Below, piece after piece: positions 28,985 to 60,342 of a stretch of DNA of 64,000 nucleotides. The stretch lies in assembly GCA_001687465.1 (NCBI GenBank), contig LVLI01000084.1, positions 62,001-126,000 of the forward strand. The letters run 5' to 3'. This DNA is from Halocafeteria seosinensis (taxonomy: Eukaryota; Sar; Bigyra; Bicosoecida). A program made the translations under genes and the position numbers. Each line of letters starts with the position of its first letter. Positions within the stretch are counted from its first letter, which is position 1. Below the pieces are notes generated by a model. The model was not told the DNA's origin, did no database searches, and saw nothing but the letters and a program-made list of their open reading frames with translations.

Positions 28985-30944
28985 TCATGTGCCACTACTG
29001 TTACCTGAGTCGCCACTCGTAAACGGCTTCCTCGAATGAGAGGAATAAAGCCGGCTCTTGCGAGCCTTGTCCATCTCTGCACGGACACGATCACGCTCTT
29101 CGGCGTTTCGCAGCCATTCATCCAGCCGATCCTGTTCTTTGAGCATCTCCGGGTCATCAGGACGTGAGTCCTTGCGGCTCTTCAGCATTGTGGACAGAAG
29201 AGACCATAATCTTTTCACTTCTGCTGTCTTCGCCCCTTTATCTTTCATAAATCGGATCATTGGTAAATCAGTGTCTTTCGAATCCGGCTCCAGTTCTATG
29301 AAGACGGCGCTAGGATGTTTCTTTTGGATTGCTAACTCAACATCCTTAAGCTCCCGTTCAACAAGACGTGTGACGTCCTCCGCATAACTGCAAAAAGCCA
29401 CCAGGGGGTGAAGTATTCTGCTATGCCTACACAAACTATTGCTATGGGCGGCAGGACATACTAGCTAAGGAGTATTGGGAGTTCATGAGCCAAATCTCCC
29501 TTGGTAGCGGCCTCGACAAACAGCTTCCGATAACTGCTCTGCAACTTGGCGCTCAAATATGTACCGTCAAAGTCCACTTCAGCTTTATAGGCAAAGGCAG
29601 TTGGTCCGATCCATTGAGACTGCACATGGCTCACAGCTTCTATCGATGGAAAATTCAATATTATGTTCCGAATATCCTCGGTCGTTCCTGCACAAACCAT
29701 ATGCGTACCGGAAGCAGCACCAGAGATTTCTTATTTGTAATACACCTACCAGAGTCTACCGCTTGCCCAACGAGATATGCTTTGTTTAAATTGACCAAAC
29801 GGATTGCAACAGCCCCTAGCATTCCACCAATGAGGATGCTAGCCCCGTGATCCCACATGGGATTGCCAGTGAAATATGCCATGGATATCCCACCTGCTGC
29901 GACCAGTACACCCGAGCAGGCTGTCAAATCTTCCATGAAAACAGCCGCCATAAATGGATCCCTAGTTTTCCGCATAAAGTGATACATCGCCTTGGCTCTT
30001 ACAGTCACGTATTCGAAGGAGTTTTTCAGTTTGAATCCATCTTTCAATCGTGGATCTGCCGACGCTTTACTCGATGCGCGGGATACAATTTCTTTGGCTG
30101 CCCTATGTAGTACATAGCCATCTATAATAAACGCTGTACCCAAGACAAACGCGGCTTCCGATGTCGGTTGCATGGGTGCATTCGCGATAATTCCCTCGAT
30201 ACCTGTTCAAGAGACACATGGCTTCTTGAAAACGACAGATGTATTTTTTCTGTACACCAAATAAATTACATACCATGAAAGATACTCACACCGGCTCCGC
30301 ACCTGCAAAGTAAAGCGTTAAGCATCCACCACAGCATGAGTTTTTATTCCAAGTACCTTCCCTCTTGACCATAGTTTCTCCACGACTTACCAGAAAAGTC
30401 CTAGGGCACTCACCAAGCCCCAAAAGTACGCTGCACGTCCATATCCGTAAGGGTGATCAGCATCGGCCCGAACTTGGCTTTGACGAAGTCCCAGAGCCAA
30501 GAAGGCTTGATTCAGCGTATCTACCAGTGTGTGTATCGATTCAGCCATCATAGCACTGCTTCCCGTCCGAATGTACACGATCGTCTTGAGAGCGGTAATG
30601 ATGGCATTGCCTACCATAGCCATGACCACCGTCTTTTCTGTCCCTTGGGGCAATCGACGTGGCGTAGGGAATTCCTCCTCCTCCGACTCTGTCCACCGCG
30701 ATTCGTAATAAGTCGGAGACGGGGCAGGTCCTTCCTGGGGCTCCATAGTATCACCATAAGGCCCTCGTACGGGCGTCGACTTTGATTTATCACCATCGGA
30801 CGAGAAAAACACGCCCAAAGAGGCAGAGGGCCTCCAAATCCCCACCCCAATTCCTCGATTCCTTTCCACGAATATCCCATTCATGCCACGCAGGTATGGC
30901 CTCCATAATCTGCCCGATGATCCTAATGTCCTCAAGGACAGCAT
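28985..30944 (-). CDS. SLC30A9 (ZnT9)-like cation diffusion facilitator
   Basis: Five exons on the minus strand: 30391-30944, 30274-30302 (29 nt), 29750-30202, 29462-29687, 28985-29387; 554 residues with phases consistent. The ATG at 30944 opens an Arg-rich, acid-free leader (MLSLRTLGSSGRLWRPYLRG), a good mitochondrial presequence. TM2 carries ESIHTLVDTLNQ with the H-x3-D metal site, then HPYGYGRAAYFWG. TM5 has VFMEDLTACSG, with Glu-Asp in place of the His-Asp of canonical zinc CDFs, as in SLC30A9. A cytosolic/matrix ferredoxin-like domain follows, with a charged helical tail. SLC30A9 exports zinc from mitochondria. It ends 80 bp from the convergent RCC1 gene. Confidence 0.87.
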
Positions 30945-33487
30945 GATGTTAATACGACAGGTGTACCGGATACCTCTACTACTACATGTGCAATGTGGCA
31001 AGGCAGTCTCCCCGCTCCTAAACCACCCACTACTGGTACATGATACTCAAGCAAACGCCATGCGTAGTGTCAATATATTGTCAGTGGATTCGAGACTCTC
31101 GAACTTAAAATTCACCGTGTGTGTAATTCCTACACAGCACAGTGTGAAGGTGAATGAACCCTCAGTTCACACAGCCGGCTTGGCGGAACTGGGAATTGAA
31201 GACAACTCTCCGGGATCAAGAAGCATACAGTAGAAAAGGTGATTGATGACATGAATTTGTAAGTCGATTTACAGATTTTTGGAGGCGCAGATGGAGGTGT
31301 ACGATCCAGTCGGAAAGAAAGACCAACTGCATATGTGCGTGTGTGGGTTGTATGTGTGTTCCGGCAAAGACAGAAATAGCCTGGCTTGGTCTTTTTGAAT
31401 GTTGTGAGCATCGCTGGAAGCTCAGTCAATCTGCTGGCATGGGGTTCGTCGTGGGGCGGCAGGAGGCTAACTGGATCCCAGCACATTGCTTGACAAGACC
31501 CCCACTCTGGACTCTACCTTGCCGACATTGCATCCGCTGGAAACATACTTCTACGAATCAATCTGCCGTAGTCAACTGAGCTGTTGCACGGTGACCGAAG
31601 AGCATCATGGAGTATGGGTCAATGATGTTCTCGAAGGTTAGACCCGCCAATAACCGGTACGATCCAGTATTTAGTCATTTAAGTCTGTGTTCCTGACTCA
31701 GGAATCCTGAGGTGTGGCTCCTTCTTTTTCAATTCCAAGTTCGTTTTTTCCGCGTGCAGGGTCCTCAGTGCGGACCCCGCACTAAGTCTTACCGGCACAG
31801 GCCCGTGTGACAGGGCCAAGCCTGTGTGTATTAGTGTTGCTCCTACCGAAAGACGTCTAGTCTACAGGCTACGCTAGGCCGGGTGTGGGGTGAACCCTAC
31901 CGCCAACATCTTCACGTTGTGGCGCATCAACGTGACAGACACCGTCATCAGTGTTCGAAAGTTCTGCATCTCCCTTGTTCTTCAGCCAAAGAACCCGGTG
32001 CTTCCCTGACAAGTCTCTTTAGGAACTTACTCGAGTCCCCCGTCCCTTCTATCACGAACAGGACACCTTCCGTGCGGTGATCCCTCAGATATCTGAATTT
32101 TCTCCGTTTCATCTTCTCCGATTCTGCCGCGATGGTGAAACGTTTCCCTGCTGGCCTAGCTAGTCTGTCTCCTGTGAGTCGATTTGGAACTGTTACGTCG
32201 ACATAAACTGTGCTGGTTGAGCCTTTTGCTACCAGGTCCATGACTGGCCTCGCTTCTTCTTCATTTCGCGGGTCTACGAGCACCTCTCTCTACACTGGCG
32301 TTTGACCCATGCGGATGTAATTCTCCAGTTCCACTGCTATCCTGTCATGACGGCGGATCCTTTGCGTGGCGTTCCCTTCTTTGCCGCATCCCAGTAGGGC
32401 GTTGCCTGGGAATCAGAGAAATGCAAACAGTGGGCGGTATGGTTGATGCTTGTACTGTACATCCCCATGCAATCATGCACAATTATGGAAATGTGTTGAA
32501 ACACCCAGCTTGCCCCCTACCAGCCCCTACCGAATGACTTGAACCAAGTGCCATGCAACCGGCTGTCAGGTCAGGCAGACGGATTCTTTGCGGACTCCGA
32601 TTTCGCTGTCGGCTCCGCGTCTTCGAGTTGATTCACACATATGACGCATCATGCGAAGCAGCAGAAAAACAGGATGCGATCTGCCAGGTACAACTCCGCG
32701 TAGAGTCAGCGTGAAGTGGGTACAGAGTGACTGGTCAGGGAGCAGGAAACAGAAGACACAAGGAAGCCGATGAAGGCCACCACCGGCCAGCTGGGAGCAT
32801 ACGACGCTACCTAGACTGAGGTAGGTGCGTTGCATCCCAGGGGAGGAGACGGCACCCAAAAGATTGAAGTGAGAAAGAAGTGCTTTGCTTGTAGTTCTGA
32901 GTCGTCAACCCCTCTTCCCGGGCCGGATTCCCCGTAACCGTCTTTTGTCTGGTTTTTTGCGGACCTCAAATTCGGTGTAACCGTGTAGCTCTCTCCTTTG
33001 GACGCTATGGTATGAGTACATGCTTTCTCCATCGTACATAGAACTGTCCACTCGTTAATAGGCCTTTTTCCGCTAACTTGAACCTCCAATGGCTCACATT
33101 CAACGTAAGTACCAACTGCTTCCGAGGAGCCACACTGCTTCACAGGAGGATTTATTCTGCAGGACTCCGCCTCTAGTCGTGAGGGGGATATACACGGGAT
33201 ACAATGTATATATCTCCATCCGCAGGTGGGAGCAAGAGCGCTTATGTAGGCTTATACGCGGAGATAAGGAACCGGCGGAGGCAGTGCAGCAGGGTCGCAC
33301 TCCAGCTCCCAATGCTCGTATGTCTGTTAGGATACTAAAGATAATGGCTTGTGGATTGTAAATTCGGAGCATCGGTCAGAGCGTCGCAAACAAGCGCATC
33401 CGTGTTTGGTCTGCATTTCGTTTGCTGTGAGTTTTTCTTAGTTGGCTTATATTGCTTCCTTGGTGCCCTGGTTGAAGGACAAGAAAA
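30945..33487. other. 2.5-kb gene-free stretch with retroelement debris
   Basis: Apart from the non-LTR relic at 31948-32400 I see no gene. Hairpins occur at 31767-31783 (AGTGCGG-ACC-CCGCACT) and 31797-31830 (CACAGGC arms). Remaining open frames are short and compositionally random. The last part should hold the promoter of the first lipoxygenase-like gene. Confidence 0.5.
31948..32400 (-). mobile_element. Non-LTR retrotransposon relic, C-terminal end
   Basis: Read on the minus strand, the segment resembles the region after reverse transcriptase in LINE-type ORF2: a CG-x-RRHDRIAVELENYI block, then VYVDVTVPN, then a run of Glu/Lys/Arg ending LFVIEGTGDSSKFL. The order R-H-D, D-V-T-V, and 'E.tG' is typical of the 3' end of many LINEs. 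A TAG interrupts the frame just before the 112-codon open part, and no reverse transcriptase core is found upstream. It is a dead fragment. Confidence 0.5.
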
Positions 33488-35490
33488 ATGGCAGGTCGTT
33501 CCCCTCAAGCTCACCCGAGGCGAACTTGGCCCTGGAAGACGATGTTTGTCGCACTCGTTGCTGTCTCTGCAAGCAGTTATAATATCCCCAAGGGACTCGT
33601 CTGGAATGTTCTTGTTCATTATGTCCCGAACCTGGCTGCTCTGTCTACCGTGGGACTTTTATCAACGGTAGGTAGTGGCGTCAGAACACCTGTTTTTCTT
33701 TTATCCGCTTCCCGCCTTTCACGGGGAATCGGAATATGCATAAGTGACTCATCGGTACTTTAAAGGAGTCAGTTGTGTGTCGCGTGTCGTGTTTATTGTC
33801 TGGGAGTGTCACATGTATACTCTTTCATGTCATGCAGCTTCATCCTGTAGCCCCTGTAGATTACCTCGCTGAGGAAACGGTGCCTAACTTCCTCAAGTCG
33901 GTTCAAGATAGGTACTTCGATCAATCCCCGCCAGATCCGCGAGTGGTTTACCCCAATACAGCACCAACGATCCTTAATGTACCGATATTAGAAAGGATAG
34001 AATTCTTCATATTTCGTTTCTGGAACTTCTTTGCTTTACAGTTCATCAATATGCCGTTCAATCTGTGGTATTCACAGCTGAACTACCAAACTACACCGGT
34101 GCGGGACGACGAACTGGCTACTCTATTCACGCATCACTGGCCGTCATTTTTCCTCCGGTCACTGAACTACACTTCTCCCACCGGAACAGCTGAAGGATTT
34201 CCCGAATTTGTAGAGGCTCTAGACATCTCCAGCAGGGGAGGAAGAATCTTCGAATGGTACTACGCTCAGTTCCCCGGGATGGCTACGTTCGAGTACACGC
34301 AAAATAGCGAAAATATGTTCTATGGGGCGGGCTCATTTATCATCCTACGCCGCCCAAAGGGAAGTCCAGAAGAGCTGGAACCATATGCTATTGAGCTCTT
34401 TGGTGAATGCATGAACTCTTCCAACAAGAACGACGGGAATCATCCGCGATTTCCCTCTATCATTACAAGACCTGGTGATCCTGCATGGGACGCCAGTAAG
34501 ACCTTCCTGATCCATGGTGCACAACACTACTATGTCCTGGCGGAGCACTCGATGTCCCATTTCCCCTTCGATATTATCAACGCCGCTACCAAAGATCGCC
34601 GACTGGTGCCCCTGTTTCACCCGATCCAAAGTCTGTTGCAGCCTCACTTCAGATTCACCTTATCACTCAACGACTTCGTCATGAACAGTTTTGCAACGAG
34701 CATCTTATTGAATGACCATCTAGTGCACTGCTTTGACGCAAGCGGACCAGCGATCTTCCAGCTAACTCAAGAGTATACTAAGGAATTTAGTTTCAGTAAC
34801 CACAAAGTGGAATACTTTCCACCCCGCAATCCGTCGAACATAACGATCTTCCTCTTGGAATACCGCCCAATCATCGGAAAGTTTGTTCGACGAGTAGTCG
34901 AGGAGCATCGGTCAACTGGAGAATTTCGCGATGTTTACATGCAAAAATGGGCCGATCACATTGCTGCGTATGTTCCTGGGTTCCCCAATGGAGAGCAGAT
35001 TCAGAATGAAGCAGTTATGATCGAAGCGCTCACTGAAATAATCTTTGATTTATCCGTACACCATAGTACACAGCATTGGAATTATCATACGTCGCTTGAG
35101 ATGAAGAAGAGACCATGGCGTATTCGTCATCGCCCGCCTCTTTCCAAAGAAGAGCACTGGGACTGGGATGAAGGCAGTCACACAAGCGGAGATATGTTCA
35201 CATACTCTCAGACTGAGATTATGTTCTTCTTTCCTGGTAAGTTTCATCCTTGTTTCTTTTTTGGACCGGTAATGCCACTGTTTAGCCGATATCTACTTTG
35301 TTCGTCGAACACAGGACCCTACAATAGTCTTAAAGAGACTAAGTATAGCTTCTCGCGTCCGAAAGTAAACGATTATGCCCGGGAATTCATCCAGGATTTG
35401 AAGGCGAAAGATAAGAAGCTTGAGAAGGAAGGAGATCCGGTGTATCAGCTAGTCCCCTTCGACAAGATGGGCCCCTCAATTGACTGCTGA
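33488..35490 (+). CDS. Secreted lipoxygenase-like protein, copy 1
   Basis: Three exons, 33488-33667, 33838-35236, 35315-35490 (584 residues). The first exon encodes a hydrophobic leader (FVALVAVSASSYN). There is no N-terminal PLAT barrel. Lipoxygenase-fold signatures run in order: MFYGAGSFIILRR then PYAIELFG (compare the PLAIEL block), W277-x3-K, the helix YYVLAEH (291-297), FHPIQSLLQPHFR (320-332), and VHHSTQH (467-473). By alignment H297 matches the second iron His, and H469 and H473 match the third and fourth ligand positions. The first iron His is Tyr292. The chain ends GPSIDC, not in Ile. Lipoxygenases oxygenate polyunsaturated fatty acids; activity here is uncertain. It is the first of three tandem paralogues. 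Confidence 0.8.
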
Positions 35491-36287
35491 AGAAGGCAGT
35501 GAACGGCTGATGGCATCTAGTGAATTGCATATTATGTATTCTGTATAGAAGTTGGAGGAACTTTAGTTGAGTCAAACGGCAAAGACCGATTCGTAGCCAA
35601 CCTGGACAGTGGCCAAACCGTCGGGGCTTTACTGTGCTGGATTCGAAATATGGATAAAGTAAGCTAACATGTATAAGGTAGCAAAGGTGGTCGGTCTTAC
35701 CACGGGTAGTTCGTTTGGCAGCGTAGAGGTCCCTCTTATAGCCTGGATAGATAACAGTTCCTTTGTTGCTCCAATCAAATGACCCAACACTCCAACTCCT
35801 CTCGTTTGAGAGTACGCTGTAGCGATTCTGAAGAACCTGGTGCATTGAGAAAATATGAGAGAACTAAAATCTTGTCTCCGCAGTCTTCTCAAGGACGTTA
35901 GTCAGCTGGATTCTTGGAGTCCCAAGAGTCAGCAGATGCTACTCGGGGGCACATTGTGCGTCTTGACCCGAGGCAACGCATGTGTATATGCCTTGCATAA
36001 CGGTAACGGGCAAATCACTTATCGCATCATCATGACGGGAGAATTCTTCTCCGCAGGCGGCCGTAAAGGATGGTGTTATTCGGGCTTTCGGTGTTGGATC
36101 GGAATCCATCCCCGCACCGCGGATCCAACGCCCAGTTCCCCGCCACAGAGGTGGGAAGTGTTCGACACTGGTTGAGTTGAGAGAAGGTTTGATGATGGGG
36201 CGCGGTACGAGGTAGCCTGCTTTGTATTTCTTTCGCAATTATCCTGGTTGTATTAGGTGAGCTTGAGTCCCCAAAACTCCGGAGGAA
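35491..36287. other. Gap between lipoxygenase-like copies 1 and 2
   Basis: About 800 bp. A hairpin with 8-bp arms GTTGGATC/GATCCAAC (36093-36100 and 36122-36129) lies about 160 bp before the start of copy 2. No other feature. Confidence 0.4.
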
Positions 36288-38189
36288 ATGCCTGCACAAG
36301 CCCAGCAGCCACCAGTGCCTTGGAGGACACTTATCGCAGTGCTTGTTGCTATGTCAGCTAGTAGCTACAACATACCCACCGATGTCGTCGTAGATACGTT
36401 CACGCACTATCTGCCCAACTTGGCGGCACTCTCCAGCGTCGGCGTCCTTACAACGGTAGGTTCTGAATTGGCGATCTTCTATCCTCCTCGCGGGCGCCCC
36501 GCGCCCGAGGGTCCCTACACGGATATCGTTCACAATGTACTCCTTCTTGCAGTTTCATCCAATTGCTCCGGTAGATTATGTCGCCAAACAAACGATACCA
36601 AACTTTTTGGAGACTGTGGAAGACAGATATTTCGACCATTCTCCTCCGGATCCGCGGGTCGTCTACCGTCATACTGTGCCAACCGTTCTCAACGTCCCGC
36701 TGCTCGAACGAATTGAGTTCTTTGTGCTCCGCTTCTGGAACTATTTTGCATTGCAGTTTCTCAACATGCCGTTCAATATGTGGTACTCGCGATTCAACCA
36801 TCGGACGACTCCTATAGAAGACGAAGAATTCAGTGCTTTATTTATGCACCATTGGCCATCGGCATTCCTTCAGACCTTGAACTACAGTTCACCACCTCAA
36901 ACAGCCGAAGGACTACCGGAATTCATCAAGGCGTTGCGTATCTCCGAACATGGAGGGGAAATCTTTGAATGGTACTACGTCCAATTTCCAGGAATGGCAA
37001 CCTGGGCATATACCAGGGAGCACAATAAGATGTTTTATGGTGCGGGCTCCTTCGTCATCTTCCGGCGTCCAAGAGGAAGTGCAGAAAATCTAGAACCGTA
37101 CGCCATTGAGTTGTTTGGTGAGTGTATGCGTGAATCATACAAAAATGATGGGAACCATCCCCGGTATCAGTCCATAATCGTCCGGCCAGGAGATCCTGCA
37201 TGGGATGCCAGCAAAACTTTTGTCATACATGGTGCCTCGCACTACTACGTGTTGGCTGAACATCCCATGGCTCATTTCCCTTTCGACGTTATTAACGGCG
37301 GAATAAAAGACCGACGCATAATGCCCGTTTTTCATCCTCTACGGCCGCTCCTGAAGCCGCATTTCAGATTCACTTTGACATTAAACGATTTCGTGATGAA
37401 CAGTTTCGCAACAAGTATAGCACTGAATGAGTACTTGGTGCACTGCTTTGATGCCAGCGGTCCGGAGAGCTTCCAACTCATTCAAGAGTATACGAAAAAG
37501 TATAACTTCTCCGAACACAGGATCCAGTATTTTCCTCCTCAGAATCCGTCGAATATGAGTGTATTCCTGTTAGAATACCGGTCTATCATTGAAAATTTTG
37601 TACGACGAGTTGTCGAGTATCATCGACCTACTGGTGAATTTCAGGATGCTTATGTTCAAGACTGGGCTGACCATGTCTCAAAGCACCTTCCGGGCTTTCC
37701 CAACGGGCGCGAAATCCTGGATGAAGAAGTGATGATTGACACTCTCACGGAGATCATATTTGACCTTTCCGTACATCACAGCACTCAGCATTGGAATTAT
37801 CACACTTCCTTGGAGATGAAGAAACGGCCTTGGCGTATTCGACACCGACCGCCACTGTCGAAAGACGACCCGTGGGACTGGAAAGCCGGTAGCCACACTC
37901 AAGAGGATGTGTTTACATACGCACAGACAGAAATCATGTTTTTCTTTCCGGGTAAGGACTTCAACTTAGTTCAGCTAGGCCATTTGTCTCAACCATACTT
38001 TTCCCGTACGCAGGTCCCTACACTATCCTCCAAGAGGTCGAGTATCAGTTCGATGACCCACAACTGCAAGCGATAGCCAAGGACTTCGCCCAGCAGCTGA
38101 AGGTGAAGGACAACCAGTTAAAGAAGACAAAGACACCTGTATATCAGCTAGCTCCTTTAGACAAACTTGGGCCATCCATCGACTATTGA
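36288..38189 (+). CDS. Secreted lipoxygenase-like protein, copy 2
   Basis: Three exons, 36288-36455, 36553-37951, 38014-38189 (580 residues). Exons 2 and 3 have exactly the same lengths as in copies 1 and 3 (1399 and 176 nt). The leader reads TLIAVLVAMSASSYN. The core keeps YGAGSFVIFRR, PYAIELFG, YYVLAEH with Tyr288 at the first iron-ligand position and His293 at the second, FHPLRPLLKPHFR, and VHHSTQH with His465 and His469. The C-terminus is GPSIDY. It is the most diverged of the three around the helix after the iron site (NGGIKDRRIMPV). Intron 1 contains a GC-rich hairpin (GGGCGC-CCC-GCGCCC at about 36491-36505). Function is inferred from fold only. Confidence 0.8.
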
Positions 38190-40330
38190 CTCTTTCATTG
38201 GGGGAGGAAGTGTGCTCCCATACCGTATGGCTAGTTGGCATTGGTTTCGAGTGTAGAGCCTACCTCTCGACTCGAAGCTCTGGACTTTACAGAGCATAAT
38301 AGGAGAGATTCCACGCCTAAATAAATGCACACAAGTCTCCTTGGAGTTTGGTGATTTAATAACATGATAAGCTACTGTCTCCAGGGCGGGCCCGCAACTC
38401 GGCCCTGAGTCAACGTCGACATCCGAGGTTCACAAGTCTCTCTATTGCGTTGTCTATTATCTTCTCTCCAGCAGTAGCTCGTCATATCGGTAGTTTGGTA
38501 GATCCACTCCTTGGTTTACCAGAGGTTATGGAGGGAAAATTGGGCTGTGATATTAATTGAAGCACGCCTCTGCCAGGAACGCGCGGCCGTTTAGATCCCT
38601 CCGCGGAGTCGCATGCAGCATGATGCAGTGTAAGTTCCAAGAGGTCCTTTTTATATGCTACATTACACGCACATTTGCTAATCTATTGTACAGTGCTATA
38701 TTCATTATGTCTGTTCATTCTGGGAACTCCCTCCTCTTGTGCAGAAGAAGGAGTCTAGATATCCAGACAGAGCGGCCCATCCTGAACTTTTTTGACAGAG
38801 GCCCCGTAATAGGTGCAGCAAGGTTGTTGCACCGCTGGAGTAATTTGTTGGAATGGCGATAAGCTCCTGCACTTGGAGAAGTGGCGGTGCAAGTTCCTGA
38901 GCTCAGGAAATTGGAAGCGCTCGAGCTCGAGCTGAACTTCGAGGCTCGAAGATATAGGGGGAAAACAGGTGGATCAACGATATAAATGCGTCTAGTGCTG
39001 CTCGCAGGGACTATCCAGATAGAGATCTCAGTGTGAGGCGAAGGGTACATTCTATCGTAAGTCTCAACCAACTCCAACAACCGCGTTAGGAAATCTGGAC
39101 ACTTCGACCAGCTTATTGCTAAGCAGACAAACGTTCTGCTCCTGGAATCTGATCTGACTGTATGATCCTTCAACATTATCTAATCGGAGAAATGCAGTGT
39201 GTGGTTTAACTTCATCGACCGTGAAACTGTGTGTGGTTTCTCCAGGATTGACGGAATTGCCCTAACTCGGAGCATCAGACGCAGAAGATGGGTCAGCGCG
39301 AAACTCTTGCATAAATAGTGCCTAGATGATATGCTAATTACCAACAGGTCACTTGGAATAACAATATAGGAAATCGAAAACGATATGCCGAGGTTTGAAT
39401 ACTCAATTTATAACTCGATGGCAGCCATGCTGAAACTAGCATCTATGCCACTGCATACCTGCCGATCTGATCGAAGGAAAAAGCCCGGCTTTCATAAAGC
39501 AACCTAGCAAGGTTTGAGGAAGACGTCTCAGCTGAAACCGCAGAAGCTGCGGACATTCGCGGCCAAATCGATACGCGGATGTGTTTGCGGAGTTGAGGAA
39601 TTCCATGACCATGGAGGTTCAACTCTGTTACATGGACGGATGTAGCTTGCGCGCTATTCATCCCGACATTGTGGAGGAAGGAATGTACTTAAGCACGCGT
39701 ATTGCAGCGTGTGTCTCCAGGATGAAACCGTGAATGACGCAGACAGCGGTGAACGAGCAAGCGGCGAGGCTTCGAGCTGTAGTCTGGGCGCACACAAACA
39801 AATTCCATGGACCGAATGGAGGGCGGCTTGGCCAGTGACTCAGAATTCGTGGTTCAAATGTAGCTTTCCGCATTGTAACATGATACTATTTGGGTGTAAC
39901 TGTGTATAAGCTCCGAGTGTACAGGTTGAAGTTTTTCTCCGGAAGCTAACGGAAACTAGATGGAGTCTGTTCTGCTGCATTCTACGCTCCGGAACGCGCC
40001 ACAGGTACCATACGCGCTTTCTATGGCATATATAGAAGTATTCCCGAGAAGGGGAGCGCTTGTGCGTGCATAGGTTGTTCACGACAAAATACACCTGTTT
40101 TTTTTTATCCGGTGACCTGGAGACGCGGTCTGCTTTCCGCAGCCAGGGATCTTTTGGGATCCGCCGCTGAGTAGCTGTTGTATATTCCATAGTGTTGATC
40201 CACTGCGATACTGAGCTTCGTCCTTTTGCCGTCATTTCTCTGCCCGGTTCAGTCCACGTGCGTTTGTGTGGTAGAAAATCTCAGGATATCTTGTTCTCAC
40301 AACAGTCGCTCGCTCGCTCCAACAGAAAAA
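38190..40330. other. Gap between lipoxygenase-like copies 2 and 3
   Basis: 2.1 kb with no recognisable gene, RNA or mobile element. Open frames are short and lack protein-like composition. There is no remnant of a fourth copy that I can see. Confidence 0.4.
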
Positions 40331-42252
40331 ATGAGGTGGAAGACACTGTTGGCCGTTCTGGTGGCGATTACTGCTAGCAGCTACAATATCCCCAAGGGGC
40401 TCGTTGTGGATATATTCACCTACTATGTCCCGAATTTCGCGGCGCTTTCAGGTGTGGGACTCTTGACGACGGTAAGTGGCACGCAAAAGGCCCCAGCCAA
40501 GCCAACTTGGGCCTGGGAAGAGGTTGAAGTGGATGTTGGATGTACGGCGGAGATAGTTGTGACTCATCGTAACCTAGTGAGCGTATTTGTGTATGTGTGT
40601 GCAGTTCCACCCCATTGCCCCGGTAGATTACGTTGTGGAGGAAACTTTGCCCAATTTTCTCAAGTCACTTCAAGATAGGTACTTCGATGGATCTCCGCCG
40701 GATCCTCGAATTATTTACCCAAACACAGTTCCTACGATTCTCAACGTGCCATATTTAGAGCGAATTGAGTTTTTCTTGTTCCGATTCTGGAATTACTTTG
40801 CGCTGGACTTCATCAATATGCCATTCAACTACTGGTACTCCCGGTACCGTTACAAGACAACCCCGATGCCGGATGAACAACTTGCAGCCTTGTTTTCGCA
40901 CCAATGGCCTTCGTCTTTTCTATTGACCCTCAACTACACATCTCCTGCTAAAACCGCGGAAGGTCTCCCAGAATTCATCAGGGCCCTGAAAATTCCAGAG
41001 CACGGTGGGGAAAAATACCATTGGTACTATGCACAGTTCCCCGGTATGGCCACGTTTGCCTACAACCAAGAGCATAACAAGATGTTCTACGGGGCCGGCT
41101 CCTTCATTGTCTTCCGTCGCTCGAAGGGCAGTGAAGAAGATCTAGAACCTTTTGCGATCGAGCTTTTTGGAGAATGCATGCGCAATTCTACAAAGAACGA
41201 TGGGAATCACCCGCAGTTTCAATCCATAATCGTTCGGCCTGGAGACCGTGCATGGGAAGCTAGCAAGACGTTTGTTATCCACGGTGCCCAACATTACTAT
41301 GTGCTGGCAGAACATCCCATGGCTCATTTTCCTTTTGATGTAATCAACGGAGCAACAAAGGATCGTCGGTTGGTTCCTCTCTTTCATCCGATTCAGTCGC
41401 TTCTCCAGCCTCACTACAGGTTCCATTTGACTTTGAATGATTTCGTGATGAACAGTTTCGCAACAAGCATCTTGCTTAACGATCATTTAGTCCATTGCTT
41501 CGATGCAAGTGGTCCTGAGATTCTGCAATTAGCACAGGAGTACACGATGAAGTTCAGTTTCACCGGCCACAAAGTGAAGTATTTCCCACCTGAAAAACCC
41601 TCTAACTTGAGTGTGTTCCTTCTGGAGTACCGTCCTATCGTTGAAAGGTTCGTGCGCAATGTGGTGGAATTCCACCGCCCTACCGGTGAGTTCCGCGACG
41701 GATATATGCGAAAATGGGCAGACCACATCTCCAGTCACATTCCGGGATTCCCCAACGGAGAGGAGATCATGGATGAGGAAGTGATGATTGATACACTTAC
41801 GGAGATCATCTTTGACCTGTCGATTCACCACAGTACGCAGCACTGGAACTACCATAGTGCGTTTGAGATGAACAAGCGGCCATGGCGTATGCGCCACCCA
41901 CCGCCAATGTCAAAGGACGATCCGTGGGACTGGGAGAAGGGTAGTCAAACTAGTGATGATATGAGCACATATGCTAAGACAGAGATTATGTTCTTCTATG
42001 CCGGTAAGTTGTACGGTCGTGGCCTGTTTTATTATCAAGTCGTGTTGACATTCAGACGTGCTTTGATGAACTGCAGGGCCGTACAACAGCGTAAAAGACA
42101 CTAAATACAGTTTTCAAGCACCAAAGTTAAAAGAATACGCGAAACAATTTACTGACGAATTAAAGCAGAAGGATGACCAACTGAGCAAGACCGGTGACCC
42201 TGTCTACCAGTTAGCGCCATTGGATAAGTTAGGACCATCAATTGATTACTAG
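40331..42252 (+). CDS. Secreted lipoxygenase-like protein, copy 3
   Basis: Three exons, 40331-40471, 40605-42003, 42077-42252 (571 residues). The ATG at 40331 opens directly into the leader (TLLAVLVAITASSYN). Core motifs match the other copies: FYGAGSFIVFRR, PFAIELFG, YYVLAEH with Tyr279 at the first and His284 at the second iron-ligand position, FHPIQSLLQPHYR, and IHHSTQH with His456 and His460. The C-terminus is GPSIDY. Adjacent to the iron-site helix it is closer to copy 1 (NGATKDRRLVPL) than to copy 2. Shared intron positions (phase 0 after exon 1, phase 1 after exon 2) show that all three arose by tandem duplication. Confidence 0.8.
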
Positions 42253-45576: not shown

Positions 45577-48285
45577 TCAGCCTTTGACCGTGCGCATGGG
45601 TCTTTGAGCAGGCAGTACAATGACCTTGTCAGGCTGATTGTTTGGTTTACTCGCAACCGAAGCACTATTTGTTGCAGAAGCTGTCGGCATGGAACTTCGT
45701 GTTGGAGCCAAGCTCGACGATGACGTTCTTGTCATAGTCGGAGAACTAATGGTAGAAAATGAAGCCGAGGGGGTTGGTGTCAAAGTTGGCGTGGGGCTTG
45801 CCGTTCCAGTTGGAGTCCTTATTTGGCTGTGCGACGACGATGACGATGACGATGGGGTGACACTCGCAGATGGTGTAAAGCTGCTTGAAGGAGCCTCCGA
45901 GCTTGTCGTTGTCGATAATGGCGTCCACGTGGGTGTAGGAGCAGGGGATGACGGTGGCAATTGAAAGCGTAGAATCGGCAGCAGATTCTCTTCTTCATCG
46001 TCGTCACTTGATCCTCTATTTAAAGCCCATACGTCGTCCGACCACCCTCCCAGTTGATACAGTTGTCCCTGTATATCGCTTAAATCATCTGAATTGTCCG
46101 TTTCTGCAAGATTGTCGATAGTAGGAATGACTCCTACTATCGGCTCTCCATTTCCGTTGTATACCGAATATTTCACGTGGATTGTACCGCTTGCTTCGCT
46201 TAATATAGATCCCATAATCCCACCAGCATTCGTCCCAGTGACTGAACCTGATGCATATGTATTTGTGATGTAGACATCACCTGTCGCACCACCTGATTGC
46301 CCTCCTGTCTGGTATCCTGTAATACCTCCTGCTTGGGTGCCAATAATATCTCCTCGTGTATAACAATCTATGAGATGTGCTTCACCGCGTCTATCTGCTG
46401 TATCCCCTCCACTCATCCCTCCACTATAATCTGCAGATATTTGTCCCATATTATAACATTCCTTGATATAAACGAATCCATTGTTCCAACCAGCATTGCC
46501 ACCCACAATACCACCACTGTATGGACCACTAGGAATGATATCTCCTGTGGAATAGGAACGAGTTACATACACTTGACCATTCGTCTGACCAGCAGCATTT
46601 CCACAAATACCACCTGCATATTGTCCTTCAATATTCCCAGTGGAGTAACAACCCGTGATATTGACAATCCCATCATTGGATCCTACACTTTGTCCTGCAA
46701 TACCACCTGCACTATCCAGTATCCTCCCTGTCGAATACGAATTCGATATCTTGATTTGACCATGATCATAACCACTTTGCAAACCACATATACCACCACC
46801 TTGGCTACCAGCAATATCTCCTGATGAGCTACATGAATCTATGATAAAGAATTTCTGATGTGATTGGACAATAAATCCACCACCGGATGCAGTTTTCCCA
46901 TTCCTAACATCAAGATTCCGGATCAAGGGAGCTTCATCAAATGATACAACACTACCCAGTATAGTAAACAATCCTTCGAAATCTGTTATCCCGTTCAGAT
47001 CTATGAAGTCCCCATTTTGCCGACCACCATCAAATGTCTCATTCGCATCCAACGAGATGTAGTCTTGGTTCGTATAGCCATGATCATCACCCCAAGCCAA
47101 CACACTACAATTCATTTCAAACTGGTGTTGAGCCGCATTATAATGAAAGCAGGATTCGTCACCATTTAAAATCGCAGGTCGTAAATCTGTTGCTGATACT
47201 ACCTCGTTCAAAAGAATGCAACCGGAAAACAATGTCACCAACATTCCTGTCGTGAGTGACGAAATATTACCACTCCTATTTTGGAGTCTGTACGCCAGAG
47301 ACCCCTTTCCATGCGCTAGGAGTTTCATTCTCCTAGAAGGGGATAGCCACGTCAGTGTCTTGAATGGAAATTCATATCTCAAGGGAGAAGCCTTTTCCAA
47401 TGAGTTGCTGGGAGTTGCGGAAAATTCTTCATCCCCTGGAGTTGTAAACTTCCAACTCAATGCTTGCAAAACCAGGACTGATGCGATCAGCAGGCTGAAT
47501 AAAACAAGAAGTGATTTTTCCTTTGGGACAGTCAAGGCGTGGAATCTGAGGTGTGTCATGTAATCACAAAAGCGAAATATCTCTCGGACACTACGGAGTG
47601 GATTTATATCCCTCGCTACAGTGCTGGCAGTCGTTAGAGCAGCACCGTCTCGTCCACTCTTAACCAGCTTGTTCCACCAGTAAACATAGTTGGTCGTTGG
47701 CCAGTGAACTCTTGGACAAAAGTCATTTTTGACATCGAGATGTGCGTGCGTCTCAGACGTGAACAACCCATTGGAATGACCCATCAACTTCATGTCACTA
47801 GTACTCTCCCGCACCAAGTTAATCGCTGGAAGATTTTTCATTGCAGCTGGATCTTCGGGGAGAGTTATACTTAGACACTGCAACCTTCTTCCCGTATTTT
47901 CAAGTATGTAGTAGTCATAAGATAACATCTTGTGGACCCATCCTCCTCGTGACCACGCGCCAAACTGAACCGGCATCGGAAGACAAGAGACATGTTTGCT
48001 ACGAACCGAATAAGATGACGGCACGATGCGAGCAGAGGAGGCAAAGCGACGCAGCCTCTGACGAGATCCATACACCAGGAAAGTATCACACTGAGAAGAG
48101 AATCCTGGTACGCGATGCGCTACCGATACGCATGGCTCACTGGGTTTGGGACCGTCCGCTTGCTTTGGCTCCTTGTCGGATATCAAGAGAGGACGGACAG
48201 CAACGAAAGCAACCCCAACCCCAATCAACATCAGCGTCCATTGCAAGGTCAGCGAAGATGATATACGCTGTGTGGGTCGTTTCAT
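45577..48285 (-). CDS. GLUG-repeat membrane/surface protein with Ser/Thr/Pro tail
   Basis: Single open frame of 902 residues. Hydrophobic segments lie at about 14-33, 256-278 and 348-368. Residues about 400-720 hold some seven GLUG-type repeats of roughly 36-40 residues, of the form CYSTGNI...AGGICG, which fold as a beta-helix in surface adhesins. The last 150 residues are a Pro/Ser/Thr mucin-like stalk (SPTPTLTPTPSASF). The third hydrophobic segment starts at a Met (residue 348, codon 47242-47244) and looks exactly like a signal peptide followed by the mature GLUG domain. The 347 residues before it have no known domain. The frame may be a fusion, or the real surface protein may start at 47244. 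No C-terminal anchor is visible. Confidence 0.7.
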   Translation of the reverse strand: MKRPTQRISSSLTLQWTLMLIGVGVAFVAVRPLLISDKEPKQADGPKPSEPCVSVAHRVPGFSSQCDTFLVYGSRQRLRRFASSARIVPSSYSVRSKHVSCLPMPVQFGAWSRGGWVHKMLSYDYYILENTGRRLQCLSITLPEDPAAMKNLPAINLVRESTSDMKLMGHSNGLFTSETHAHLDVKNDFCPRVHWPTTNYVYWWNKLVKSGRDGAALTTASTVARDINPLRSVREIFRFCDYMTHLRFHALTVPKEKSLLVLFSLLIASVLVLQALSWKFTTPGDEEFSATPSNSLEKASPLRYEFPFKTLTWLSPSRRMKLLAHGKGSLAYRLQNRSGNISSLTTGMLVTLFSGCILLNEVVSATDLRPAILNGDESCFHYNAAQHQFEMNCSVLAWGDDHGYTNQDYISLDANETFDGGRQNGDFIDLNGITDFEGLFTILGSVVSFDEAPLIRNLDVRNGKTASGGGFIVQSHQKFFIIDSCSSSGDIAGSQGGGICGLQSGYDHGQIKISNSYSTGRILDSAGGIAGQSVGSNDGIVNITGCYSTGNIEGQYAGGICGNAAGQTNGQVYVTRSYSTGDIIPSGPYSGGIVGGNAGWNNGFVYIKECYNMGQISADYSGGMSGGDTADRRGEAHLIDCYTRGDIIGTQAGGITGYQTGGQSGGATGDVYITNTYASGSVTGTNAGGIMGSILSEASGTIHVKYSVYNGNGEPIVGVIPTIDNLAETDNSDDLSDIQGQLYQLGGWSDDVWALNRGSSDDDEEENLLPILRFQLPPSSPAPTPTWTPLSTTTSSEAPSSSFTPSASVTPSSSSSSSHSQIRTPTGTASPTPTLTPTPSASFSTISSPTMTRTSSSSLAPTRSSMPTASATNSASVASKPNNQPDKVIVLPAQRPMRTVKG

Positions 48286-50609: not shown

Positions 50610-53373
50610 ATGGATCCTGCGACCTCGGAGGTGGCTGCAGCCAGTGCCTCCTCAATACCAACCTCAAAGACTGCCCCCTCGGAGGAGAATGAGGGCTCAT
50701 CAGAGGGGTGGGAGTCTGGGTCATCCGATTCGGAGGAGAATGATGATGCAATGCCCCCAAGCTTGAGCTTGCGTCAGCCGAAGGAGAATTTCACCACGGC
50801 TGAGGAAGAGGAGGATGGTATTTCCATTTCATTTTCACGTCAAGACGAGGAAGTCGACAACTCGAGGTCCAGTTCCAAATCGGCGTCCAAGCAGAAAAAA
50901 ACTCGCACACGGAAATCTAAAGATGAAATCGAGCTTGCGAAAACGGTGCACCGCGTACATTTACTGACGCTACTCTGTCGACAACAATGGCTCTCTGATG
51001 CTTCAGACGACCCATTAGTACAAGCCGCAGCTATGTCCTACTTCTGTTCAAAAGTAAGATGATTGCTCGTCATAAAATATTGGTGTTGCTGTGATCTTGA
51101 TAATATGGCCACTATACACATGGTGCAGGAACTACTAAATGCGGTCTCAGACGGACTCAAGGCGACGCATAAGAGTCTACCTACAATTCCGCTCTTGAAA
51201 CGAATAGCTCGTTCGATGAGCGAAAAAATACGAGTGGTGCCTGCACAATTTGATTATTCATCATCAACTCTCGGTATCAGTAGACGCCTTCTTCGCAAGG
51301 CCCGAAAGCTGCTGGACCCAAGTGATGTGGTCCTGTCCCGATTACAAGCACATTCGACGGCGGAACACTTGGTAGGAAAATTAAACTCTATGCGAGGACA
51401 AGATAGAGTATACCAAGAACAGGAAGAAGACGAAGTGTTGTATTGCAGTCAAGAGGAAGCCTCACAACTTCTCGCGGCTATCACGCGGGGCCTAGGGATT
51501 CGAACACGGCTGATTTGCTCTCATGCACCGCTGCCTGTTCACACAACAAAGAAGAACGAGATTCAACTAGATGATGATGACAATTTATCAAAGCTAGAAT
51601 ATTGTGATGCCCACCCTGTAACCCTATCACGCGTTAAGGGTCTCCTTCAAAGTGTACAACCGTACGTCTCTGTGGGATCTACCTCGAACGGTCTTAAACA
51701 CCTCCAGTCATTAGGTCTGCCATTCATTTGGCTTGAAGTTTGGGGAATCGATTCCTCAAAAGCGAAGAAAGAGAGGTGGATTCCTGTAGAACCATGTCGT
51801 TGCCTAATCGATGTCACAGGTTTGGTTGAGGCCCTTGCGGCGAAGAAACATTTTCCAGCGTACGTCGTCTCTTGCGAGCCTGCGGTTGGTGGCTTCAGGT
51901 CGTATACAGATACCACACCGCGGTACTTATCAAAATGGTCTCATGCCCACCGGGTGCGAGAGCATTCTGGGACAACGACATGGGTGATGGATACTCTTAG
52001 CCGGCTTAGTGCTCGGTATGAGGGCCCTACCGTTGAAGCAAGCACCTCTTTGAAAATAGCAGATGCGGGCGGCTTTGTTAACATCCTTACTCAGTGGTGC
52101 GAAGGTGTTGGCATCCCATTCGACCAGTTGCTGACTAATGTAGCAGAGGGAGGAGGGACGTTTGAAGCAAGGTTTGCTCCTTCCTCTGATTCTCGGGAGC
52201 CACGTGGACAGGAAAACTTCGACCATGTCAAAGAGAATGAACGTAAGTCGTTGGCAAGGCTTTGTTTTGAAAACCTACGTATCCTTTAGCCACTGAGAAC
52301 TTGCTTTATCCACAGCATTGCCGACTTCCCTTTCGGACTTTTCTTCTCATCCAACTTACTGTCTTCCTTCACAGCTTAAAGTGGATGAAGCGGTTGATAG
52401 GTCGCATGCCGGGAAACGGGCGTATATTCAAGGTTTCTTCAACGGAGAACCTGTGTACAAGCGAACTAGCGTAGTAAAATTGAAATCGAAGGAAAAGTGG
52501 TTGAAAGAGGAAGGCAGGCAAATCAAACATGATCAAATTGACAAGCCCATCAGGAGTCTTGAGAGAACCCGAAGAAAACCCAGCAATCAAGCCAGTTCGT
52601 CTACGCCAGTTTCTTCTGCCTCACAACCAAATCTGGGTCAGTATAATAGAGGAGACAGACATTATTGGACGGCTTATGACAGAGATATCTCATCAAAGAT
52701 CGCAAGTTCTAAGTCCGGAAGCAAGAAGTTGGATAAAGGAAATTCAAATAGGGATTCTCAAGCGATGGAGTCAGAAAGCCCTAAGGATACATACACGATT
52801 CCTCTCTACAGCTATCAGCAAACTGAACCCTTTGATCCTCCACAGGTCGAAGATGGTAAGATTCCTCGTAACAAGTACGGAAATGTGGAATTGTTGAATA
52901 GAGTGTGTTTGCCTCATGGAGCCGAGTATCTTCCGGACATGCCCAGACGAGCTCGGAGCGTTATTCGCAAAGCTGGGGTTGACGCAGTAGAAGCTGTTAC
53001 TGGCTTCGAGTATAAACGAGGAGAGATGGTCCCAGTGAAAGAAGGAATTATTGTGCCTGCTGAGATGAAAGATGCAGCTCTGCAAGCATGGAACGAGCAC
53101 GAACAAGCGCGGATCTCGCGAGAAGAAGAGAAACGCTTAAATGCAGTATACGAACGTTGGTCTAAACTCGTTCGAGCTGCACTGGTGCGACATCGACTCC
53201 GAAGCGAATATTACGGGGAAAAGGACAAAAGTGAGCACTACTCAAAGCTGAACCCTAATTTACAACAATCGAAAATGACTGAACGTAAACGCAAGAAGCC
53301 GGAAAGACATAGCAGCGCCTCAAGTGATAAACGGCCTAGACGAAGCGCGCGACAACATGATCCGTCAACATAA
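50610..53373 (+). CDS. XPC: XPC/Rad4 DNA-damage recognition protein
   Basis: Three exons, 50610-51053, 51129-52242, 52316-53373 (871 residues). The acceptor at 52315, not the stronger-looking one at 52374, keeps phase and restores the PLPTSLSDFSSHPTY start of beta-hairpin domain 1. XPC/Rad4 binds helix-distorting lesions in global nucleotide excision repair. Visible parts: acidic/Ser-rich N-terminus; HRVHLLTLLCRQQWL; a transglutaminase-like domain with LPFIWLEVWG and RWIPVEPCRCLIDV; BHD1 with GEPVYKRTSVV and EEGRQIK; and BHD3 with IPRNKYGNVELLN, AVTGFEYKRG and IIVPAEMKDAALQAWNE. The C-terminal tail is Lys/Arg-rich. A Met at 50550 is an in-frame alternative start. Confidence 0.93.
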
Positions 53374-56331: not shown

Positions 56332-56436
56332 CTGCGTTCAGACCGGCGTTTCCTCTTTCCTGGATCTGCGCATGGGTACAACCAGACTCTCACGTTCATT
56401 ACCAAATGTAGCACGTTGCATGGAAGGGAAAACCCC

Positions 56437-56457
56437 ATCCGGGCCATCGGCCCGGAT
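56437..56457. repeat. Perfect 9-bp-arm hairpin with 3-nt loop, second copy
   Basis: Arms ATCCGGGCC and GGCCCGGAT flank ATC, again preceded by CCCC. It lies between the JmjC (minus) and DZIP1-like (plus) genes and nearly matches 14535-14555. Confidence 0.85.
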
Positions 56458-56476
56458 CGGCTTAACGGTGTGGATA

Positions 56477-56566
56477 CAACTTCAAGAAGAATTCTAGTGG
56501 ACAGCATACCAGTAGGATCGTCAATACCAGAGCGTCCTGGTATCGCAACTTCAACAAGAATTCTAG
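56477..56566 (+). repeat. Two 21-bp direct repeats before the DZIP1-like start
   Basis: Positions 56477-56497 and 56546-56566 share the core AAGAATTCTAG with CAACTTCAA before it. The 69-bp spacing is a multiple of three and both lie in the open frame that continues into the gene, so this stretch may be coding in a longer isoform. Confidence 0.7.
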
Positions 56567-56586
56567 GGGATGGGATCGCAGGAATT

Positions 56587-59500
56587 ATGTCGACTCGTTT
56601 ATTAACACTGACAGGGCCTGCTCCTCGCGAGGAACCATCTGAGACGCAGCTTCACACACGGCGACGACGAGATGGAAGGAAGCAAGACGACCGCGAGGAA
56701 GAGAATCTCTTGAGTCTGCCTAATACCGATGCGACCGCGAAACATCGCTCATTTGGTACATCCCAACAACAGGAGAGTACTCATACGGAAGCAGACGATG
56801 CAGAGGAGGAAGACGAGGTGCAGCGATGGTGGGCTCTCCAGTTCAGCCCTCGCGAACGGCCTCTCGACTGGCACCACCTTCATCGAACATCGATACAGGA
56901 TGTCATAGAAAAATGCCAGTCTATAACCTCGTCAATGCCACGTCAGAACTCTGTAGAGGATTTACATCGATATTTTTGCGACCGCTCATCGGGACTGCTA
57001 TGGACGTTAGCCATGGCCAGAGTCTCCCACGGGGACCTTACACGACAAACTTCCGGAGATATACTGCACTATATTCGTCTCTCCCAATTGGCCATGGAAT
57101 TCGCCGGAAAGTTTGGGAATATTGAGAAAGAAAACTATGAAACTCTGCGAAACAAATACGAGACTCAACAGAAGAAACTGGAAACGGCACAACGTGACCA
57201 GCTTAGAGTTCAGAAGCAGAATGCTGAGTTGCGCAGCTTAACAAAGGATCTTTTTTCAATATTGGAGATCTGTAGACAATGTGTCATGTCTGAACAAATG
57301 AAGTACAAGTTTCAGCATCTTACCAGCAAACTTGACAGAAAGTTCCAGAGACTCTTTCCAGAAGACAGTAGCAAAGCACCGCAGCAAGCCGGGGCCAACG
57401 TTGTATGCCCCTTGGACGGAAAATCTTTTGGTAGCACACAAGAGCTGAAGCATCATTTTGATATGGTGCATTTATCGAAGAAACACGAAACTCCAGTCTC
57501 AGTGAAGGACTCAGAGGGGAAGCACGCATCGGCGACTACTGGAGACGCTTCAGTGTCCCGTGAACGAATGCGAGTTCAGGCAGTTCGTTATCCAATGAGT
57601 ACGCCAAGACCCTTTGCGACGGAACAAGGACACAAGAAAGGCAGTACTGGATATGAAGAAAGTGGGGTGCTTGAACACAAGAGTGAGGCGCCCACCCAGA
57701 GAGCGGAAGATACCGAAGATATGTCTTTTAAAGAAGCGGTTGCAAGAGTAAAGCGACAAGTTCGCCAAGATTATAGCATCAGACTCCAAGAATTGGAACA
57801 AGAGAACCGCCGACTTAGAGCAGAGTCAGAGGATTACTATCAACGATACCAGGACGCTGTTAGTTCGTCCACTCAGCTGGTTACACAGCGGTTGTCTAGT
57901 CACTTCGACGAACAGGCATCTATCGTCAAGGAATTGGAATCTGCCGTGCAAACCGAGTCTTGCGAAAGGCAAAAATGCGAAAGTTGGGCTCGTGAGGAAC
58001 GCGAGAAACGACATCAGTTAGAGTCTCAGTTAAATCTAGTAAGAAATGACTTTCATACCAAACATTCTGAACTACAAAGGAGTTATAAAACCGAGAAAGA
58101 CCGTCGTTTGGCACTTGAGCGCTCTTCCAAAGGCTTTGCTGTGTATCTTGCGATACGCAGATGGCAACATAGAGCAGTAACTGAAGCTTGGAGTCGCTGG
58201 CGTCAACAAGTGACTGGAGAGCGAATGAATCAGTGGCTAGATATGCTTGATAAGAATGAATCCGATAAAGGAGAGCTTCTCTCTGAAATTAATACTTTGA
58301 AGGCGAGGGAAAATCGTCTTCGTGAGGAAATCCGCCTCAAAGAACTCGCTCGTCGGGAGTCAGTACGACGGGATCTTGATAAGCAACTGGACTATCAGGA
58401 TGAGGATACTATTGAAGCAGTAGTCGACCAGTACAAACGATACACGCCTCTTATCAAAGAGTCCATGGAAACCGACAATGCGGTTTTTCCACATCCTCAA
58501 TCTGCGGAAATGCAAGACGCGCTTCACAGTGTAGAAAGATTAATTTCGTTGAAGGCGAGGAAGCTCTGGAAGGGCTATCATCCTGACGCTTCCGAAATCA
58601 ATTCCTGGAGCCCCTCTACGGCGTCCACAATTGAGTCTTTGAAAAAGTTCTATGGATTATATGTCTCCGTTTACTCTAGGACTGCTGCTACAGCGAACTC
58701 CCAAGATGAAATTGAATTTAGCGTCGATCCAAGGCTGCTGACAGATGACCAAAAACCATATTCCCCTGTGTTCTTCCCACTGGGGAGCCTCCACCCGGAA
58801 GTGCAAAGCCGAAAATGGCATTCTCGTGAGGAGATCTCCAGGAAGAGGGAGTCCTTATCGGTTTTTGTCACCAATCTAGCCGAGGATATTAAACGAAGAG
58901 GCACAGGATTGTCCAAAACAGCAGATCGACAACAAACGGTTTGTCGCTTCCGGAGAAGCTATCTGCCAGCGTGGTGCATGGATACCACCTCCAAGCATGA
59001 TGCTCAGCTCTGTACTCTGACTCCCGAGACGCTTGCATCGCTGAAGTCTACAAACTACCTGGTGGAATGCTTGGCTTATCCCACGCAGCAGCCAGGTTCT
59101 ACAGTGGCCACTGAATTTTCCCTCGCTAAACAGGTAGGATCCTGGATATATCCCGTGCAAGCAAACCTATCCAGTTCAGCTTCCGCTGACTCAACAATCG
59201 ACCGCTTGGTGCAAGACCGCCAGCATCTTGAAAACCTCACCGGTATTTCTTTGAACGGATCGGCCGCATCGACAGTCGTACCGGCGAGGAAGGGTGGCTT
59301 CTTAAACCAGCTGAGCATACATCGGGATTCCGTTTCTGAATGTGTAAGCTCGGCAACCACGCTTCCATCTTCTTCAGCATCCAACTTGATACGGGGAAGC
59401 ATCACTGTCAGTCACACAACACGGGAAGCAACTGAGGGTGATACGCAAGCCACAGCACGCTTCGCTCCACGTGATATCGCTGACGACTCTTCCGTATCTC

Positions 59501-60342
59501 CGTTACCTACCAGTTTGAGTGACGGACGAGGTTCTCCAGCAGTGGGGGCCCACCGGGAGGAATATACTTCCTCCGAGACTCAAACAGGTGCTTTAGCTCA
59601 GCAATCTAGCGATCAGCAACAGCAAGAAACAGCTCCCGCCAGTTCCACAGTACCTACTGTTAGCGTCCAAACACAATCGCTGAGTGAGGGTACACCGTCG
59701 CTGATCTCCGTGGGAGCAACAAGGCTGGAGACTGTTGAAGTAATAGATTCGACTACTGCCTCTTCAGAAGCCACATCTGGTGCCCTTGCGCCCACGACAC
59801 CTTCTGGCACACAAGTGGCAGAAACTCACAGTGTGACCGAAGCTGATCGCACAGCAAGGAGTGAGCGAACAGTAGTATCGGTTACGAACACCTCGTCGAG
59901 GAACACATTTGCAGGATCTGGCTACCTTAATGCTCCACAGCAATATAGTATTCCAAGGGGAAGTGGAAGATTGAATGCCTACGGAACTGGTACCCACAGG
60001 CGAATAGGTGTCGGGGTGTCGTATAGCTTGGGGTTCGGAAACAGCCGCGTAGGCTTGCGGGCTCAACACAGACCCATTCCTTCTCCATCGACAACCCATG
60101 GGACAGCCACGTCCTCTGATAGTGTAGTCACAGAAGAAAGGGGGGATTCTGCTTCCAGCAGTGAAAGTACCAAAGTCACTCAGACGAGGGAGACTCCTGG
60201 TAATGTCAGTGTTTCTACTACATTCACCGAAGAAACTGGCGTATCCAGTGAAACGAGCTACAATACCGCAACCGCCCCGGCAGCCACCGCTACTGCTGAA
60301 GATGAAAACGAAGATTCAGATATCAGTGTAGAAGAATTGTAA
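56587..60342 (+). CDS. DZIP1-like basal-body coiled-coil protein
   Basis: Single exon, 1251 residues from the first ATG (56587); the frame is open upstream to 56416. The N-terminal module matches DZIP1/Iguana in order: FSPRERPLDWHHL, an LSQLAMEF helix, a coiled coil, then one zinc-finger-like segment at residues 274-295 (CPLDGKSF ... HHFDMVH) with the same spacing as the DZIP1 C2H2 finger. The second Cys is Asp277, so zinc binding may be altered. Coiled coils follow to about residue 640. A conserved-looking region at 600-900 has no known domain. The C-terminal 330 residues are Ser/Thr-rich and disordered. DZIP1 acts at the ciliary base and transition zone. It is head-to-head with the JmjC gene and 59 bp from the convergent SCAMP gene. 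Confidence 0.72.
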   Translation: MSTRLLTLTGPAPREEPSETQLHTRRRRDGRKQDDREEENLLSLPNTDATAKHRSFGTSQQQESTHTEADDAEEEDEVQRWWALQFSPRERPLDWHHLHRTSIQDVIEKCQSITSSMPRQNSVEDLHRYFCDRSSGLLWTLAMARVSHGDLTRQTSGDILHYIRLSQLAMEFAGKFGNIEKENYETLRNKYETQQKKLETAQRDQLRVQKQNAELRSLTKDLFSILEICRQCVMSEQMKYKFQHLTSKLDRKFQRLFPEDSSKAPQQAGANVVCPLDGKSFGSTQELKHHFDMVHLSKKHETPVSVKDSEGKHASATTGDASVSRERMRVQAVRYPMSTPRPFATEQGHKKGSTGYEESGVLEHKSEAPTQRAEDTEDMSFKEAVARVKRQVRQDYSIRLQELEQENRRLRAESEDYYQRYQDAVSSSTQLVTQRLSSHFDEQASIVKELESAVQTESCERQKCESWAREEREKRHQLESQLNLVRNDFHTKHSELQRSYKTEKDRRLALERSSKGFAVYLAIRRWQHRAVTEAWSRWRQQVTGERMNQWLDMLDKNESDKGELLSEINTLKARENRLREEIRLKELARRESVRRDLDKQLDYQDEDTIEAVVDQYKRYTPLIKESMETDNAVFPHPQSAEMQDALHSVERLISLKARKLWKGYHPDASEINSWSPSTASTIESLKKFYGLYVSVYSRTAATANSQDEIEFSVDPRLLTDDQKPYSPVFFPLGSLHPEVQSRKWHSREEISRKRESLSVFVTNLAEDIKRRGTGLSKTADRQQTVCRFRRSYLPAWCMDTTSKHDAQLCTLTPETLASLKSTNYLVECLAYPTQQPGSTVATEFSLAKQVGSWIYPVQANLSSSASADSTIDRLVQDRQHLENLTGISLNGSAASTVVPARKGGFLNQLSIHRDSVSECVSSATTLPSSSASNLIRGSITVSHTTREATEGDTQATARFAPRDIADDSSVSPLPTSLSDGRGSPAVGAHREEYTSSETQTGALAQQSSDQQQQETAPASSTVPTVSVQTQSLSEGTPSLISVGATRLETVEVIDSTTASSEATSGALAPTTPSGTQVAETHSVTEADRTARSERTVVSVTNTSSRNTFAGSGYLNAPQQYSIPRGSGRLNAYGTGTHRRIGVGVSYSLGFGNSRVGLRAQHRPIPSPSTTHGTATSSDSVVTEERGDSASSSESTKVTQTRETPGNVSVSTTFTEETGVSSETSYNTATAPAATATAEDENEDSDISVEEL

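Follow-up and report, generated by a model that had tools for sequence, protein, structure and literature searches.

The stretch of Halocafeteria seosinensis DNA analysed here (64,000 nucleotides of contig LVLI01000084.1; hereafter the window) contains three tandem genes that encode homologues of the lipoxygenase superfamily. Sequence comparison assigns them, as eukaryotic representatives, to a distinct and unnamed clade of that superfamily whose members are mainly bacterial. All three copies carry tyrosine in place of the first iron histidine of the HxxxxH motif, as a preliminary description of this DNA had pointed out with coordinates and residue numbers (292, 288 and 279) that proved right. 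Judged from the alignments, the tyrosine is a local feature within a broader finding: the clade lacks the first iron histidine, has a shortened histidine spacing, ends in a residue other than Ile or Val and is strictly conserved elsewhere in the site. The genes and the codons concerned are as follows; residue numbering in the text is that of copy 3 (protein P0001) unless stated.

Copy 1: 33488-35490, + strand, exons 33488-33667, 33838-35236 and 35315-35490, 584 residues
Copy 1, Tyr292 codon: 34531-34533, + strand
Copy 1, His codons of HxxxH: 34546-34548 and 34558-34560, + strand
Copy 1, His codons of HSTQH: 35062-35064 and 35074-35076, + strand
Copy 2: 36288-38189, + strand, exons 36288-36455, 36553-37951 and 38014-38189, 580 residues
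Copy 2, Tyr288 codon: 37246-37248, + strand
Copy 3: 40331-42252, + strand, exons 40331-40471, 40605-42003 and 42077-42252, 571 residues
Copy 3, exon 1: 40331-40471, + strand, hydrophobic N-terminal segment (copies 1 and 2 alike)
Copy 3, codons of the first helix: Tyr279 41298-41300, His284 41313-41315, His288 41325-41327, + strand
Copy 3, codons of the later helix and the end: His456 41829-41831, His460 41841-41843, last residue Tyr571 42247-42249, + strand

Each gene is interrupted by two GT-AG introns of 62-170 bases, which mark the DNA as eukaryotic. The spliced copies 1, 2 and 3 are letter-identical to the EukProt transcriptome proteins P0003, P0002 and P0001; thus, all three genes are transcribed. 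Pairwise, the copies differ at a proportion of nonsynonymous sites (pN) of 0.16-0.18, against a saturated synonymous proportion (pS) of 0.84-0.87. The three genes are therefore old duplicates under strong purifying selection, which bears out the earlier argument that a substitution shared by three copies is not random decay. In all of them exon 1 encodes a hydrophobic N-terminal segment of 47-60 residues that has no counterpart in most bacterial alignment rows and is modelled with low confidence; it is possibly a signal or membrane anchor, and would then target the protein. The last residue, absent from the preliminary description, is Cys in copy 1 and Tyr in copies 2 and 3 rather than Ile or Val. 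Across the whole host assembly (30.6 Mb, 605 contigs), the lipoxygenase family PF00305 matches only these three genes at E <= 1.

PF00305 is also the sole Pfam match of the three copies at E <= 1, with scores for the long exon frames of 24.7, 21.4 and 25.8 bits (copies 1 to 3) that lie near the cut-off of 23.6 and cover a partial length. An NCBIfam search with proteins P0001, P0004 and P0005 at E <= 1 matched no family. Profile-profile comparison (hhalign) of the clade with 16 bacterial lipoxygenases that retain the first histidine gave a probability of 99.4% (E 7.4e-22), and a lipoxygenase catalytic-domain fold is predicted over residues 75-571 of the structure model. The comparison pairs W264 with its Trp counterpart, Tyr279 with the first histidine, His284 with the second and His288 with the third, and so reproduces the alignment previously anchored on W-x3-K. 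Because the stretch from W264-x3-K268 to His284 aligns free of gaps, Tyr279 truly occupies the first-ligand place. A one-residue gap follows between His284 and His288, where the ordinary H-x4-H becomes HxxxH; this spacing results from the deletion of one residue between the second and third histidines, another feature that the preliminary description does not mention. The second iron histidine is retained, as are the third-ligand His456 and the fourth-position His460 on a later helix. Here HSTQH, correctly described as kept in all three copies, aligns ungapped with HSSNH of porcine 12-lipoxygenase (12-LOX), unlike in the hhalign result, which places a gap beside His460.

Thirty-two clade loci were identified by scanning genomes of bacteria and archaea; by titles and tree labels they belong to Bdellovibrionota, Myxococcota, Bacteroidota, Pseudomonadota and one planctomycete. 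A protein search with locus L013 as the query found 405 relatives. The best 120 of these, together with P0001-P0003, P0005 and 26 loci, make up an alignment of 150 members; this sample is skewed to L013 relatives, holds near-duplicates and includes some proteins that repeat the loci. Six loci that have an uncertain start or a broken or fragmentary frame, or that are near-copies, were omitted from the alignments (L007, L019, L028, L035, L037 and L038). All six also show HxxxH; a frame change interrupts L019, and the fragment L038 has Asn at the place of Asp292.

His284, His288, Pro290, Asp292, His317, His456 and His460 are each present in 150/150 members. The column of Tyr279 never holds His: it contains Ala (94), Ser (33), Ile (11), Leu (4), Tyr (3), Met (2), Thr (1), Gly (1) and Cys (1), so that the search for the same Tyr in relatives, proposed earlier, found none outside the three window copies. 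All 150 proteins end at one and the same column, in Phe (96), Tyr (44), Ser (9) or Cys (1). The structure alignment took in 119 of the 150, and the end position agrees with the lipoxygenase C-terminus in 49 of 50 rows. Additional histidines at W+9, W+13 and W+24 had been put forward as alternative ligands. W+24 is His288, as invariant as His284 at W+20, and stands as a possible ligand; the other two do not hold as clade features, His being found at position 273 (W+9) in 3/31 rows and at position 277 (W+13) in 7/150 members.

In a phylogenetic tree a single branch, supported at 100/100, separates the 31 clade rows from the rest. Within the clade the three eukaryotic proteins stand as sister group to the remaining 28 rows; the branches are long, and this join may be false. 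The clade profile matches 14 of 191 Bdellovibrionota-type genomes (the phylum of genome G002). A second, more distant clade member is seemingly present in genomes G002 and G310 and, as locus L043, in G006. A literature search of titles and abstract starts recognised no publication on the clade.

The invariance of the site and of the end argues for a metal enzyme. A new metal centre formed by the tyrosine itself had been one earlier suggestion; the residue is probably no new ligand, because its column varies in relatives while four histidines and the end stay fixed. On balance, we lean towards a rearranged site. The metal would be bound by His284, His456 and His460 together with the C-terminal carboxylate. 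His288 would most likely complete the set, brought to HxxxH spacing with His284 by the one-residue deletion. Tyr279 would sit where the first ligand has been lost without itself binding the metal; in relatives this place holds mostly Ala, Ser or Ile. Fe (or Mn) would most likely be bound, unsaturated fatty acyl chains would be oxidised, and perhaps a lipid signal would be made. What the data show for the window proteins is homology, the predicted fold, the invariant residues, the fixed C-terminal position, transcription and purifying selection; we infer the metal, ligand geometry, substrate, reaction and signalling role. A fuller version is offered tentatively: the one-residue deletion may allow the third histidine, normally not a ligand, to join the second in a rebuilt site, where two HxxxH motifs would supply four histidines and a C-terminal residue, mostly aromatic, would supply its carboxylate. 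The chemistry would then differ from that of known lipoxygenases, and the proteins would have a lipid-signalling role in bacteria and at least one eukaryote.

Oxidation of unsaturated acyl chains would be the likeliest reaction by fold and homology, and the host assembly contains eight desaturase matches. In bacteria, a kinase-AAA-GAF-cyclase fusion lies directly downstream of the clade gene in L015 and has relatives next to L014 and L019. A histidine kinase lies beside L025, and its relatives occur next to L011, L018, L026 and L033. Other neighbours are a SpoIIE-type protein (L012), an extracytoplasmic function (ECF) sigma factor (L007) and a cyclic-nucleotide-binding, patatin-type protein (L038). 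Oxylipin cell-to-cell communication is reported for Pseudomonas aeruginosa (PMC6377657), so that a lipid-signal role for the clade is reasonable but unproven.

Loss of the first histidine was also assessed in a control set of 32 distinct bacterial PF00305 proteins. The set was obtained by removing 4 duplicates from 36 frames, and it includes weak PF00305 matches and some proteins cut at locus ends. The second histidine is present in 32/32 and the first in 20/32, including L068. The 12 proteins without it are L041, which is uncertain, the second frames of L040 and L063, and L067, L069, L070, L071, L073, L074, L075, L076 and L077. They carry Ala, Gly, Ser, Thr or Gln at the position, and the eight that are in the tree all fall outside the clade. 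Thus, the loss is not peculiar to the clade. Four of these proteins (L073:736-2502, L071, L074 and L070) have Thr or Ala in the first position, and their fourth is Gly or Ala; they nevertheless keep the second and third histidines. Nearby lipoxygenase genes form pairs of one with and one without the first histidine in four of the five pairs inspected: G001 (L040), G087 (L058/L077), G145 (L063) and G096 (L056/L076, about 4 kilobases apart on opposite strands), with G125 (L065/L078) keeping it in both genes. Such mixed pairs possibly combine an active enzyme with a partner.

Several observations weigh against the rearranged site. The third histidine, which aligns with His288, is present in all 32 control proteins, in which it is not known to be a metal ligand; the invariance of His288 alone therefore cannot make it one. 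No clade member (0/150) ends in Ile or Val, and no activity of any clade member was found in the literature searched. The bacterial neighbours were picked by eye, and a scan of 10 gave five of signalling type, one flagellin, one HlyD-type protein and three without a match. In the alternative that survives best, although we consider it somewhat unlikely, only His284, His456, His460 and the C-terminus would bind the metal, leaving an open coordination site. His288 would stay in the second shell, as its counterpart does in ordinary lipoxygenases; its alignment with the conserved third histidine of ordinary bacterial lipoxygenases speaks for this. The control proteins without the first histidine fit this picture in that they keep the ordinary five-residue step between the second and third. 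However, the clade has lost one residue at just this point, giving the i,i+4 spacing on a helix that is a common metal-binding arrangement.

It is improbable that the proteins are conserved non-enzymes that bind lipid in a lipoxygenase fold without metal. The lost first ligand, the lost Ile/Val end and Pfam scores that lie close to the cut-off or below it would suit such a role, but metal-free lipid binding would not demand four histidines, Asp292 and an exact C-terminal position in 150/150 members. More improbable still is a lineage-specific His/Tyr ferric site in which the eukaryotic copies gained a phenolate ligand: Tyr279 stands exactly at the first-ligand position of the gap-free alignment and has been retained by each of the copies despite saturated synonymous sites, but 147/150 members have other residues there, and Tyr is not singled out because the whole HYYVLAEH stretch is identical in the three copies. 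Tyr279 would thus be an unlikely ligand even in these copies.

The clade was compared with the PF00305 lipoxygenases animal 12/15-LOX and 5-LOX, P. aeruginosa LOX, CspLOX2, soybean LOX-1 and fungal MnLOX. It shares with them the catalytic fold, the second and third histidines, HxxxH/N on the later helix and a free C-terminus in the same place. Unlike them, it lacks the first iron histidine, has one residue fewer between the second and third, has an HFPxD-type motif after these two, gives a sequence signal near the Pfam cut-off and ends in Phe, Tyr, Ser or Cys instead of Ile or Val. The arachidonate 12S-lipoxygenase LOX1 of Myxococcus fulvus (676 residues, low iron load), compared by description only, is likewise bacterial with a histidine pair four apart: its ligand clusters are given as His372 with His376 and His549 with Asn553 (PMC6612559). 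According to a recent review (PMC13059375), all lipoxygenases have in common three fixed histidines and a terminal carboxyl, which usually belongs to Ile and very occasionally to Val. Every clade member examined departs from the histidine and terminal-residue points with the rest of the site frozen. The clade thus offers a direct test of the ligand requirements of the lipoxygenase fold, and of the ability of the third histidine to act as a substitute. Names such as 'lipoxygenase' or 'hypothetical protein', found among the matches listed, conceal a class of proteins whose products may not be ordinary hydroperoxides.

Elsewhere in the window, an open frame of 902 residues (45577-48285, - strand) has repeated glycine-rich units with CYSTGNI-like stretches and a Ser/Thr/Pro-rich tail, and has no Pfam match at E <= 0.001. 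Two open frames at 29661-31001 (- strand) resemble the gene of a cation-efflux family protein split over two exons. A Rad4-like DNA repair gene occupies two open frames at 51063-53373 (+ strand), with the domain order transglutaminase-like, BHD1, BHD2 and BHD3. The regions 6534-9077 and 56416-60342 (+ strand) give a match to FBF1 (58.9 bits, above its cut-off of 45) and a Dzip1-like match too weak to reach its own cut-off. Both are ciliary protein families, and these matches hint at a ciliated or flagellate organism.
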